From Slackia heliotrinireducens DSM 20476 (GTDB lineage: Bacteria; Actinomycetota; Coriobacteriia; Coriobacteriales; Eggerthellaceae): a stretch of 64,000 bases of DNA. The stretch is from contig NC_013165.1 in assembly GCF_000023885.1 (NCBI RefSeq), forward strand, positions 2,418,001 through 2,482,000, in the 5' to 3' direction. A program made the translations under genes and the position numbers. The notes beneath the pieces were generated by a model, which worked only from the letters and a program-made list of their open reading frames with translations, had not been told where the DNA came from and searched no databases. Shown one piece after another: positions 36,850 to 58,091 of the stretch (its first letter is position 1; each line of letters starts with the position of its first letter).

Positions 36850-36863
36850 CGAACAAACGTTCT
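36850..36863. promoter_or_regulatory. LexA (SOS) box upstream of dinB
   Basis: CGAACAAACGTTCT matches the Gram-positive/actinobacterial SOS box CGAAC-N4-GTTCG at all but the last base. It ends 19 bases before the dinB ATG, so a bound repressor would block transcription or initiation. Confidence 0.85.
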
Positions 36864-36882: not shown

Positions 36883-38181
36883 ATGACGGAACGCGTTGTT
36901 CTGCACGTTGATATGAACGCGTTCTATGCGTCGGTCGAGCAGCATAAAAATCCATCCCTCAGAGGCCGGCCCATAGCGGTCGCAGGCAATCCAGAGCGCC
37001 GCAACGGCATCATCCTTGCGAAAAGCCGCGAGGCGAAAGCGTGCGGGGTCAAAACGGCCGAGGCCTTATGGCAGGCGAAGGAGAAATGCCCGGATATCAT
37101 CTTCGTACCGCCTGATTACCGATCCTACCTGCGGTATTCTCGCTTCGCCAGGCAGATTTACTACCAATATTCCGACCAGGTCGAACCTTTCGGATTGGAT
37201 GAAAGCTGGATCGAGCTCACCCATACGCTGCACCTCCATGGCGGAGATGCCATGCTCGTTGCGGAAGAAATCAGCGAACGCATCAAAGCGGAGCTGGGGC
37301 TTACCGTATCGGTAGGTGTGTCGTTCAACAAAGTGTTCGCCAAGTTCGGAAGCGACACCGATCCGGGCGACGGCATCATGCGTATAACTCCGCGCAACTT
37401 TCGAAGCATCGTATGGCCGCACCCGGTCGATGAGCTCATCTACGTAGGGCGCGCCACCAAATCGAAGCTGAACTCCTCTGCGGTATTCACCATCGGGGAT
37501 CTGGCCTGCGCCTCCGACACGCTGCTGCAGCGGCGGCTTGGCAAGATGGGCGGCATCATCAAGATGTTCGCAAATGGCCAGGACATAAGCCCCGTCAAGG
37601 TTATGGATCCCGCGAAAGCCGATGCGGACTATGCCATCAAATCCATTGGCAACGGACTCACGGCACCGCACGACCTCGTGACCGAACGAGAGGCGAAAGC
37701 CCTCATATACTTGCTATCCGAATCGGTTGCGCAGCGGCTGAGGGAATGCCGGATGCGGGCGCGCACCATCGCCATCAGCGTCAGAGGGCATGACCTGCTG
37801 GGCTACACGCGGCAGGCGCCGCTGCCTGCTCCCAGCAACATCACCGAAGAGCTTTCCCGCGCGGCGTTCGCCCTGCTTCGAGCGAACGAACCCCTCGACC
37901 GTATCCATCCCGTGAGGGCCTTGGGCGTGCGGGCGTGCAACCTGGTTTCGGCCGACCTTCCTGTACAGGAAGACCTGTTCGGCGATGTGGCGGCCCGGGA
38001 ATCGCTTGAGCGGTTAGACGCCACCATCGACGACCTGCGACGGCGTTTCGGAAACGGATGCGTGAAACGCATGGTGGAGCTTTCGGACGAAGCCATGGCT
38101 GGCCTCGATATCAAACGGGACAACATCATCCACCCCGTCGGGTTCTTCGCGCCCGACGCCCATAGCAGGAGCGCCTCATGA
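36883..38181 (+). CDS. dinB: Y-family DNA polymerase IV (DinB type)
   Basis: 432-residue translesion polymerase. Metal-binding motifs are LHVDMNAFYASVEQ (first Asp) and EPFGLDESWIELT (Asp-Glu), and the steric-gate region NAFYAS is typical. The little-finger domain is present at the C-terminus. It carries an SOS box and AGGAGG site directly upstream. Its stop overlaps the ATG of the next small gene. The sequence is of the Firmicute-type DinB rather than ImuB, because the catalytic carboxylates are intact. Confidence 0.93.
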   Translation: MTERVVLHVDMNAFYASVEQHKNPSLRGRPIAVAGNPERRNGIILAKSREAKACGVKTAEALWQAKEKCPDIIFVPPDYRSYLRYSRFARQIYYQYSDQVEPFGLDESWIELTHTLHLHGGDAMLVAEEISERIKAELGLTVSVGVSFNKVFAKFGSDTDPGDGIMRITPRNFRSIVWPHPVDELIYVGRATKSKLNSSAVFTIGDLACASDTLLQRRLGKMGGIIKMFANGQDISPVKVMDPAKADADYAIKSIGNGLTAPHDLVTEREAKALIYLLSESVAQRLRECRMRARTIAISVRGHDLLGYTRQAPLPAPSNITEELSRAAFALLRANEPLDRIHPVRALGVRACNLVSADLPVQEDLFGDVAARESLERLDATIDDLRRRFGNGCVKRMVELSDEAMAGLDIKRDNIIHPVGFFAPDAHSRSAS

Positions 38182-55587: not shown

Positions 55588-56574
55588 CTAATAGCAGGAA
55601 GCGGTGAACCCGTCCACCCGGCTCATCCTGCGGTATTCCAGGGGCGTCATCTTCTTCAGGCTCTTGAAGGCCGATGCGAATTTGCTCTGGTTCTCATACC
55701 CCACGCCGATGGCGATCTCGCCGACGGTCATGTTGGTGGTCGCCAGAAGCACGGCGGCCTCGTCCATGCGGCGGCGCTTCATATACATGGGAATGGATTC
55801 GCCGTACATGCTGTAGAAATAGGATCGCAGCGACGACTCGCTGATGCCGTACCCTGCGGCGACCTCTGCGACTGGCGTCCGCTTGCGTAGATCCGAGACC
55901 ATGCTTTCGATGGCGCCCTGGGCCATCATCATCTGCGAAGGCGTCAGCCAGATCCTGCGCGCGATGTTGTCGTCGGGCTCCATGGCCGCGACGGCGTTCA
56001 GGCATTGCGCGAACAGCAGCCGGCGATCGGCCCTCGGGGCGTTGCGATGTAGCACGGCATGGTTCATGGCCGCCTGTAAATCGGCGGGCGCCAGCGCCAG
56101 GAACGCTTCCCCGTTCGGGCACAGACGGTCCTCCAGCTCGAATGGGTCTATGTCCAAATCCTGCAGGAAGCGCGGCAGCCGATTGCTGATGGTGTCGAAG
56201 TCGATAAAGAATTTGATGCCGAGGAACCTGCCCGTCGGCATGCTCAGCGGCGTGCGCGTGTCGTCCAGGTGCACGGCGATGCGACCCGGCTCCAGAAAAG
56301 CCGAATGACCCTCGTTTACGTCAATCCTGCAGCGACCCTCGCTGCAGGCCATGATCGTCAAACCGTATTTCTTCGGTTGCGTCATCAGCGGAACGGTGCC
56401 CATGAAGAAGTCGCCCGCAGAAAAGCGAACGCCGGTGAACAGCTCGTGGACGAATATGTCACCGTATTCATCACCCATCGAAAACGATAGGCGATACCCC
56501 CCGTTTTGCATTTTCGACCGTGTGACCACACAAGGGGCACGCGCCTCATCAACACCCGTTTCCAGTTGCTCCAT
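55588..56574 (-). CDS. AraC/XylS-family transcriptional regulator
   Basis: 328 residues from ATG 56574 (GGGGAGAAGT upstream). The N-terminal ~220 residues are a ligand-sensing region without a recognised cupin. The C-terminal double helix-turn-helix is seen in RTPVAEVAAGYGISESSLRS and NMTVGEIAIGVGYENQSKFA with FASAFKSLKKMTPLEYRR. The target is unknown. It is convergent with the GH2-deformylase pair and divergent from the SOS-controlled gene at 57064. Confidence 0.9.
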   Translation of the reverse strand: MEQLETGVDEARAPCVVTRSKMQNGGYRLSFSMGDEYGDIFVHELFTGVRFSAGDFFMGTVPLMTQPKKYGLTIMACSEGRCRIDVNEGHSAFLEPGRIAVHLDDTRTPLSMPTGRFLGIKFFIDFDTISNRLPRFLQDLDIDPFELEDRLCPNGEAFLALAPADLQAAMNHAVLHRNAPRADRRLLFAQCLNAVAAMEPDDNIARRIWLTPSQMMMAQGAIESMVSDLRKRTPVAEVAAGYGISESSLRSYFYSMYGESIPMYMKRRRMDEAAVLLATTNMTVGEIAIGVGYENQSKFASAFKSLKKMTPLEYRRMSRVDGFTASCY

Positions 56575-57012
56575 ACTTCTCCCCAAAAGACCCATCCAAA
56601 AGCACTGCAACGTTCAAGGCTCTTCCCATCGGCTGGAGCCGACTAAAGCATTTCTTGTTACGAGGCATTATTTCCCGAATACGTTTCTCGTATCTACTCC
56701 GTTTTTTCTTTTTGGCTCCAATTCGTATTTATTTACCGTCTTTAACTGTAATTTTGCATTCCATACAATCAATAGCAGGGTTTTTGCGGGTCTCAACACG
56801 AAAACATTCATGTTAGCTGCGAGCTAACCATCGGGCGTGAACCCGGCGAAATGCCGCCTTTCGCACTTTAACGGCTTGCTTATCGACTCCGTTTTCGTCA
56901 AGAGCATCCAGAAGTGCGCATGTCAATATGCAAATGGACGACCGAGCCCCGCATTCCGCCGAAACGCAACGTCTGCGCTTTTCGCGAAGCCCGCCCCTTT
57001 TGAAATATCTAC
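56575..57012. other. AT-rich gap upstream of the AraC gene
   Basis: No supported gene. It holds the AraC promoter and, at its right edge, the promoter of the 57064 gene. The stretch 56690-56770 is strikingly AT-rich compared with the surrounding chromosome. Confidence 0.5.
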
Positions 57013-57041
57013 TTGAATACGAACGGATGTTCTCTTATAAT
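57013..57041 (+). promoter_or_regulatory. Sigma-70 promoter with an embedded LexA box
   Basis: -35 TTGAAT (57013-57018), 17-bp spacer, -10 TATAAT (57036-57041). The spacer contains CGAACGGATGTTCT (57020-57033), the same SOS-box pattern as at dinB. LexA binding there would block polymerase directly. Confidence 0.85.
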
Positions 57042-57063
57042 GGCGCTTCTAAGGAGGTGACCT

Positions 57064-58032
57064 ATGATTCTCAACACTGGGGCCAGAACCGATACCGTGC
57101 AGTATTACAGCGAATGGCTGCTCAACCGTTTTGCGGAGGGGTACGTGCTGTCCAGAAACCCTCTGTTTCCGGAAAAGGTCACCCGCTACGAGCTCACACC
57201 GGAAGCCATCGACCTGGTCATGTTCTGCTCGAAAAACTATGAACCCATCTTGCCGCGCCTACACGAGATAACGGATCGGTTCAACACGTATTTCCACTAC
57301 ACCATCACGGCCTATGGCCGCGACATCGAGCCGGGCGTCCCCTCCGTCGATGACAGCATCCGCACCCTCCTCAAGTTGGAACGCCAGGTGGGAAGACAAC
57401 GCATCGTTTGGCGCTACGATCCAGTGCTTCTGCTGGGGCCCTACACCGTCGAGCGCCACCTGCAAACTTTCGAGCACCTCTGCTCCCATTTGGCCGGGCA
57501 CATCGATCGCTGCGTTTTTTCGTTCGTAGGCATGTACAAGAAGCTGCAGCGCAACATGCCGGAGCTCAAGCCGGTAAGCGCCGGCGACAAGCTTCTGCTG
57601 GCAGAGCAGATGGGGCTCATCGCGCACAAGCACGGCGTAGTGCTGCAAACCTGCGGCCAAGCCGACGATTACACGCGGTTCGGCATAGGGCCGTCGGCCT
57701 GCACCAGGCTGGATATCATGGGGCCCGCCAATAACGTTGAATTCCGCAACCTGAAGCACAAAGGCATGCGGGCGGGCTGCGGCTGTTTCGAAAGCCGCGA
57801 CATTGGTGCCTATAACACCTGCCCCAACGGGTGTCGGTACTGCTACGCCAACTACGACCACGCCCAGGCGGCACGCAACTACCAAAACCACAATCCGGCT
57901 TCGCCCCTGCTCATCGGCAACCTGTCGGATCAGGACGAAATCGTTCCAGGGTCTCAGAAAAGCCTCTTGAAGAAAGAGTTCCGACCAACCGCGCATGAAC
58001 CAGGCACTCCTGTGCAGGAGTCCCTGTTCTAG
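57064..58032 (+). CDS. DUF1848 family iron-sulfur protein under SOS control
   Basis: 322 residues. The C-terminal cysteine cluster is CGCFESRDIGAYNTC followed by PNGCRYCYANYD (about residues 239-263). CxxxxxxC and CxxCY patterns of this kind suggest a 4Fe-4S or radical-SAM-like centre, as proposed for DUF1848. The N-terminal half is a TIM-barrel-like region starting MILNTGARTDTVQYYSEWLL. AAGGAGG precedes the ATG. The LexA box in its promoter points to DNA damage. The biochemical function of the family is not known to me. Confidence 0.85.
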   Translation: MILNTGARTDTVQYYSEWLLNRFAEGYVLSRNPLFPEKVTRYELTPEAIDLVMFCSKNYEPILPRLHEITDRFNTYFHYTITAYGRDIEPGVPSVDDSIRTLLKLERQVGRQRIVWRYDPVLLLGPYTVERHLQTFEHLCSHLAGHIDRCVFSFVGMYKKLQRNMPELKPVSAGDKLLLAEQMGLIAHKHGVVLQTCGQADDYTRFGIGPSACTRLDIMGPANNVEFRNLKHKGMRAGCGCFESRDIGAYNTCPNGCRYCYANYDHAQAARNYQNHNPASPLLIGNLSDQDEIVPGSQKSLLKKEFRPTAHEPGTPVQESLF

Positions 58033-58091
58033 CGCTGCCTATACAAAAAGGCCGACAGGATTACCCTGCCGGCCCGCATAAAACACAAGCA

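Follow-up and report, generated by a model that had tools for sequence, protein, structure and literature searches.

A candidate SOS-controlled iron–sulfur repair enzyme of the DUF1848 family in Slackia heliotrinireducens

Several described systems invite comparison with the gene considered here. Operons linked to SOS are reported to contain radical-SAM proteins resembling SplB, and hence spore photoproduct lyase (SPL) (PMC3765255), so that SOS-linked repair of the SPL-like kind has a precedent. A second point of reference is the radical SAM mobile pair (pair A, TIGR04471; pair B, TIGR04470), of which pair B is SPL-like. A third is provided by the repair and polymerase proteins that bind the bacterial sliding clamp, for which the motif reported as most common is QL[S/D]LF, in its wider form QxxLF; that of PolC in B. 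subtilis is C-terminal (PMC12309361). Finally, the PADLOC collection holds a group named RTasDUF1848 (DRT-associated), which belongs to the same family as the present protein. Our searches of the literature found no paper naming DUF1848 or PF08902, nothing on “radical SAM mobile pair”, nothing on a LexA or SOS box in Actinobacteria or Coriobacter and, by titles, no permuted radical-SAM barrel.

The gene was found in a stretch of 64,000 nucleotides (the window; all positions below are those of the window unless a locus is named) from the genome of S. heliotrinireducens, which is a single contig of 3,165,038 bases, the size also published for strain RHS 1T (PMC3035243). Its coding sequence, of 322 amino acids, occupies positions 57064–58032 of the forward strand, as defined from the list of open reading frames, the Pfam match and the AlphaFold model, and all features of the gene listed here lie on that strand. 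It is preceded by a ribosome-binding site, AAGGAGGT, at 57051–57058, and by a −10 hexamer TATAAT (57036–57041) and a −35 hexamer TTGAAT (57013–57018) that together score 10/12 in a scan for sigma-70 promoters. The 17-bp spacer between these hexamers holds a putative LexA (SOS) box, CGAACGGATGTTCT, at 57020–57033, with a score of 18.4 against a matrix of recA boxes (described below). The original prediction, that a LexA box sits in the 17-bp spacer of a good promoter, is borne out by these positions; of the span that it gave for the gene, 57013–58032, the end is correct, while 57013 is the start of the −35 hexamer rather than of the coding sequence. Upstream lies a gene for an AraC-type regulator on the opposite strand (55588–56610), and downstream a convergent gene, identified by eye as aminotransferase-like, with a terminator-like hairpin on the minus strand at 58049–58075, 3′ of DUF1848; from this layout the DUF1848 gene appears to be transcribed alone.

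One reading of the box that has to be weighed is that it is a chance match, or the site of another regulator. A loose consensus search of the 64-kb window, allowing two mismatches, is indeed unspecific, giving 58 matches against 43 expected, which is barely above chance and lends this reading something. Set against it is the position of the box within the promoter spacer, together with the fact that it is of the same kind as the boxes of recA, lexA and dinB in this genome. Across the 3.165-Mb genome the strict pattern CGAACNNNNGTTCK gives 16 rows, which represent 14 distinct sites (the reversed pattern, taken as a comparison, gives 42 rows), and eight of the 14 score at least 14 against the recA matrix; six of these eight precede recA, lexA, dinB, rarA, a gene for a 320-aa protein and DUF1848, and the remaining two are near other genes. 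Within the window just three sites score at least 12, at 36850 (18.4), 57020 (18.4) and 61477 (12.1). The first of these, CGAACAAACGTTCT at 36850–36863, is directly followed by dinB, encoding DNA polymerase IV, at 36883–38181. DUF1848 thus has what would be looked for in the sequence of a LexA-regulon member, namely a promoter overlapped by a box such as this genome uses, recA and lexA being present here with boxes of that kind.

Two of the other sites may be mentioned for their own sake. At one (L009:1501–2483) the box directly precedes the gene for the 320-aa protein, which has no Pfam match and may possibly be another SOS gene; the gene that follows was named uvrA-like by eye, Pfam finding in the fragment a sub-threshold start of an ABC ATPase. 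At the other (L014:1501–2878) the box lies at rarA/mgsA (MgsA_C AAA+ ATPase).

Conservation of the box was assessed in Coriobacteriia, using a matrix that is independent of DUF1848 because it was built from recA boxes only. In a first sample of 197 genomes, 28 were positive for DUF1848, and in all 28 a LexA-type box was judged by eye to lie between −35- and −10-like hexamers of the recA promoter. These boxes are not uniform: three of 25 carry two mismatches to GAACN4GTTC, and variants such as CAAACATTTGTACG occur in some genera. The matrix was made from 27 of the recA boxes and applied, with a threshold score of 12, to the 300 bp upstream of each gene. In the first set, 13 of 30 DUF1848 genes have a box at this threshold, against 0.195 expected from dinucleotide shuffles; this set keeps four broken genes (L040, L041, L042 and L044), of which L041 is one of the hits. 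A second and larger draw had 75 positive among 396 genomes (four with partial matches, G637, G612, G635 and G631, having been left out, and G485 taken as L099), from which 42 further stretches were taken, including the interrupted gene L231; here there was a box in eight, against 0.33 expected. Combining the two sets, 21 of 72 genes carry a box where about 0.5 would be expected by shuffling, and by our own tally of genus and family codes these 21 span 11 genera and three families. Moreover, the whole of the 72 loci (214 kb) contains only 25 sites that reach the threshold, 21 of them being those upstream of DUF1848.

As placed by script, the box lies inside a promoter spacer in 10 of the 21 cases, several of these promoters being weak, and a promoter scoring at least 9/12 overlaps six of the 21 boxes, compared with 16 of 1050 random positions. 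Boxes are present in both subfamilies of DUF1848, that with MIINTGxRTD and that with MIVSASRRTDIP. In genus g10, the boxes of DUF1848 are altered in a similar way to the altered boxes of its recA genes (judged by eye), which, like the count of 21 in 72, speaks against a chance origin. A further element, CGTACTTGTGTTCG, is conserved about 53 bases upstream of DUF1848 in five loci (L214, L226, L227, L100 and L102); it scores 11.6, just below the threshold, in three loci, and is possibly a variant LexA box.

On the side of chance, or of another regulator, it also counts that most orthologues have no box. With the matrix of the Coriobacteriia type, none reaching the threshold was found in 51 of the 72 Coriobacteriia copies, in 76 of a set of 80 named relatives that spans many phyla (L070 and L106 in it repeating L026 and L025), or in any of seven copies from other Actinobacteria; of nine positive genomes outside Coriobacteriia, seven were scanned. 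The four named relatives that do carry a box comprise two repeats of loci already counted, Slackia equolifaciens, and a metagenome-assembled genome labelled Alphaproteobacteria (box at −250), none of them being labelled Firmicutes. Because the matrix derives from Coriobacteriia, a LexA motif of another type in distant phyla would escape it. Given that most orthologues lack a box at this threshold, control by SOS is supported for some Coriobacteriia and not for the family, and as far as shown it would be a trait of the lineage; the proposed check of orthologues found boxes at this threshold within Coriobacteriia (21 of 72), in none of seven other Actinobacteria and in four of the 80 named relatives. 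For the window gene itself, the boxes of its own genome and those conserved in Coriobacteriia give strong support to the predicted SOS control, of which we are very confident on these sequence grounds; that its box should be a coincidence, or serve some other regulator, seems to us highly improbable.

The protein matches DUF1848 (PF08902) with 314.3 bits (E 1.1e-93; gathering score 30.5 bits), as had been stated originally, residues 2–262 covering the full profile (1–262 of 262), and this is the sole Pfam family above its cut-off. It carries a CX3CX2C loop, CPNGCRYC, at residues 253–260 (57820–57843), seen in the sequence, in alignments and in a profile match to the radical SAM mobile pair B; C253, C257 and C260 are invariant both in an alignment of 20 sequences (A1) and in one of 55 (A2). 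With its surroundings the loop is of the type YxxCxxxCxYCYA, which it shares with mobile pair B, itself SPL-like. Also invariant in both alignments are C197, C213 and the pair C239-x-C241 (57652–57786), which might represent a second metal site or second cluster, a feature by which DUF1848 would differ from SPL. Close to the N-terminus, directly after the first strand, R8-T9-D10 (57085–57093) is invariant in A1, while in A2 R8 and D10 are invariant and T9 nearly so; judging from the structural alignment of the model, these residues may correspond to strand two of a canonical radical-SAM barrel.

DUF1848 departs from SPL in the placement of the loop. In radical-SAM proteins the cluster loop is expected on the first strand, ahead of the barrel, and in SPL it does precede the barrel, whereas in DUF1848 it is C-terminal, at residue 253 of 322 in the window protein and beginning at residues 252–262 of 304–327 in all 20 proteins of A1. 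The Pfam Radical_SAM model (PF04055) gives a weak match, through its cysteine-loop end, that scores 14.7 bits where the cut-off is 29.5; permuting the sequence in silico leaves the score at 14.7 bits. No NCBIfam family was found for the window protein at E up to 1, and four further DUF1848 proteins showed no match to TIGR04471 or TIGR04470 at E up to 0.01, so DUF1848 itself matches neither mobile-pair model. Comparison of profiles with hhalign gives significance to the likeness with mobile pairs A and B over the cysteine loop only, the N-terminal part of the DUF1848 profile doing no better than column-shuffled controls; a doubled DUF1848 profile does span the junction on pair A in the expected register, without gain in score. 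Sequence searches of the PDB produced nothing significant, either with A1 (best match the radical-SAM protein 8vpo, E 0.38) or with mobile pair B.

The AlphaFold2 model, made with 55 sequences, has a pLDDT of 92.3 and a pTM of 0.89. Foldseek found no match for it in the PDB at E 1e-3 or better; on re-alignment with VIA, the first 17 matches are all radical-SAM chains, among them Elp3, biotin synthase, PFL-activating enzyme (PFL-AE), RlmN, HydE and SPL, at Z 8.3–9.5. These values are slightly above the 7–8 that is typical of the best matches for models without a clear relative, and unrelated barrels (glycoside hydrolases) come next at Z 8.2. Of the SAM-dependent lyases with which a comparison had been proposed, SPL is among the matches (4k9r, Z 8.5, rmsd 3.4 Å over 175 residues). 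In the SPL alignment, residues 1–198 of the model lie on 134–341 of the chain, and the match on PFL-AE starts at residue 71. The cluster cysteines are residues 90, 94 and 97 in SPL and 29, 33 and 36 in PFL-AE; both matches start beyond them, and DUF1848 therefore resembles these barrels only after their cysteine loops. A model of mobile pair B aligns from near its start, to PFL-AE 1–245 and SPL 18–341, but since this model is weak there (pLDDT 67 overall, and below 50 in the first 64 residues, which include the cysteine loop), its alignment over those residues is merely indicative. This is the pattern expected of a circular permutation, and although the sequence comparisons above fall short of proof, we think it somewhat more probable than not that the DUF1848 barrel is of a circularly permuted radical-SAM type, with the cluster loop at its C-terminal end.

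It might nevertheless be that the protein is SOS-controlled and clamp-associated but performs no SAM radical chemistry, being a permuted, degenerate barrel with a structural Fe–S cluster that senses damage or assists in repair or translesion synthesis. The weak radical-SAM signal in the sequence would fit such a protein, as would the additional invariant cysteines (C197, C213, C239 and C241) and the clamp-type motif discussed below. It would be less easily reconciled with a CX3CX2C loop that is invariant in both alignments and set in the same surroundings as in SPL-like radical-SAM proteins, or with best structural matches that are all catalytic radical-SAM enzymes, and we think it unlikely. 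An Fe–S, radical-SAM-like enzyme is, on the evidence of the model, a probable description of DUF1848; to this extent the cysteine motif that had been likened to those of radical-SAM proteins and photoproduct lyases finds support in model and loop alike, albeit with modest fold scores.

A feature that SPL does not share is found at the extreme C-terminus. The window protein ends ...PVQESLF, its last five residues (58015–58029) forming a putative sliding-clamp-binding motif of the QxxLF type, and the tail is predicted to be flexible (pLDDT 50–65), as would be looked for in a client of the clamp. Many members of the family end similarly, in QLSLF, QESLF, QPTLL, QLSLGI and the like. Enrichment was measured with a regular expression that allows penta- and hexapeptide variants and is thus wider than QxxLF, the expectation being obtained by shuffling each tail. 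Among Coriobacteriia the motif is present in 49 of 67 C-termini (L040, L041, L042, L044 and L231 excluded), against 2.9 expected and a maximum of 9, while internal segments match in only 2 of 1340 cases. In a mixed set it is present in 48 of 99, against 4.1 expected and a maximum of 12 in 2000 shuffles; this set excludes four broken genes (L040, L041, L042 and L044), two duplicates (L025 and L026), and any named locus that is open-ended or outside 295–330 aa. The expression is unmatched in the other 18 and 51 tails respectively, and the tag is absent from some clostridial copies in MarR operons. The DinB of the same window, itself preceded by an SOS box, carries LPVQEDLF, close to the VQESLF of DUF1848. 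DUF1848 differs from the clamp-binding repair and polymerase proteins in that Pfam finds in it, above its cut-off, no polymerase or mismatch-repair domain. It may be added that the rarA product, read from an internal ATG, begins MQESLF, in which the QxxLF wording recurs.

The genes that accompany DUF1848 in its relatives were counted in 80 loci, on the same strand and from −2.5 to +4 kb (at least 1.5 kb being available downstream in 63 and at least 600 bp upstream in 75). Mobile pair B was found in 19, a MarR regulator likewise in 19, Fpg in 10, a nitroreductase in seven and an HhH-GPD glycosylase in five, while mobile pair A was found in none. The fullest clostridial locus (L060) has, in an apparent operon, MarR, DUF1848, mobile pair B (TIGR04470, 444.6 bits), Fpg (289.5 bits) and an HhH-GPD glycosylase. 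In three loci from Coriobacteriia (L125, L126 and L128) pair B stands beside pair A (TIGR04471; 410.1 bits for L125 and 336.9 for L128, with a cut-off of 355, L126 having the same sequence as L125), and DUF1848 may therefore replace pair A. Slackia is arranged differently from the clostridial loci, where DUF1848 stands with pair B and a MarR regulator: it has an SOS box instead of MarR, and its genome contains no strong pair B partner (38.7 bits, where the cut-off is 410).

Other associations are more scattered. In a Thomasclavelia metagenome-assembled genome (L078:3372–4430) a gene that by eye is recA-like adjoins a MarR–DUF1848–radical SAM operon, and AlkB is near DUF1848 on a Planktothrix plasmid. 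On a plasmid of Roseburia sp. 831b (L186), DUF1848 directly follows genes for a Sir2 deacetylase and a protein-ADP-ribose hydrolase, which may hint at a tie to ADP-ribosylation, and a Sir2-like gene is also near L070, L106 and L107.

Distribution raises a further question, that of a function in defence or in mobile elements, in which DUF1848 would partner reverse transcriptases or some other anti-phage system and SOS would report phage attack. The RTasDUF1848 model matches 57064–58029 with 118.8 bits; the family, which is found in bacteria and archaea (e.g. on a Methanosphaera plasmid), is patchy, being present in 75 of 396 Coriobacteriia genomes; and its distant copies include six plasmid and eight phage records. 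A scan of IMG/VR gave no match, and PHROGs none for DUF1848. Since PADLOC lists an RT-associated group, a defence role is possible for some members. The window gene differs from that group in having no reverse transcriptase beside it (no flanking open reading frame resembles one by eye), in its LexA-type box and in being apparently a single gene. In the 80 loci, moreover, the recurrent neighbours include repair genes, and no defence family is prominent by eye among the groups present in at least three loci, while the clamp motif and the SOS box are what one would expect of repair; for the window gene we hold a defence function to be quite unlikely. Returning to repair, the DNA-damage role that was originally suggested has gained two independent supports at the level of sequence, from the clamp-binding-type motifs at the C-terminus and from the clostridial operons with Fpg, HhH-GPD and SPL-like genes, and a role in repair or processing of DNA seems to us reasonably likely.

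The mechanism that we infer, including as it does LexA binding, a cluster, use of SAM, permutation, clamp binding and a DNA substrate, would run as follows. LexA, bound at 57020–57033, would block the DUF1848 promoter until DNA damage, through RecA-triggered self-cleavage of LexA, freed it. The product would be an Fe–S protein with a circularly permuted barrel of radical-SAM type, its CX3CX2C loop following the barrel, and its C-terminal QESLF motif would bring it to sites of replication or repair via the sliding clamp; there, most likely, it would act much as spore photoproduct lyase does, using SAM-dependent radical chemistry to reverse or modify a lesion in DNA. Clostridial members of the same subfamily would do this from an operon under MarR control, alongside base-excision glycosylases and a canonical radical-SAM partner of the SPL-like kind. 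The core of this proposal, that DUF1848 is an SOS-controlled Fe–S repair enzyme, we predict with modest confidence, as on balance the better reading; the conjunction of all its details, i.e. an unrecognised family of circularly permuted radical-SAM repair enzymes, tethered to the clamp and in Coriobacteriia wired to SOS, is more tentative, and we give it somewhat less than even weight.

With a LexA box, a putative clamp tag and a fold like that of radical enzymes, DUF1848 is well placed as a candidate for a DNA-repair enzyme not described before. The LexA box, the clamp motif and the repair-gene neighbourhoods, three signals independent of one another, combine with the fold to give it a concrete and testable function. 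What appears to be new, relative to SOS-linked SPL-like radical repair, is the apparently permuted barrel and the clamp tag. If the proposal is true, gut anaerobes would possess a means of light-independent radical reversal of lesions at the replication fork, working alone or, in Clostridia, in company with base-excision glycosylases and a canonical SPL-like protein. The radical-SAM barrel would gain a candidate case of circular permutation, and radical-SAM DNA repair would extend beyond spore photoproduct lyase and be physically tied to the replication clamp.
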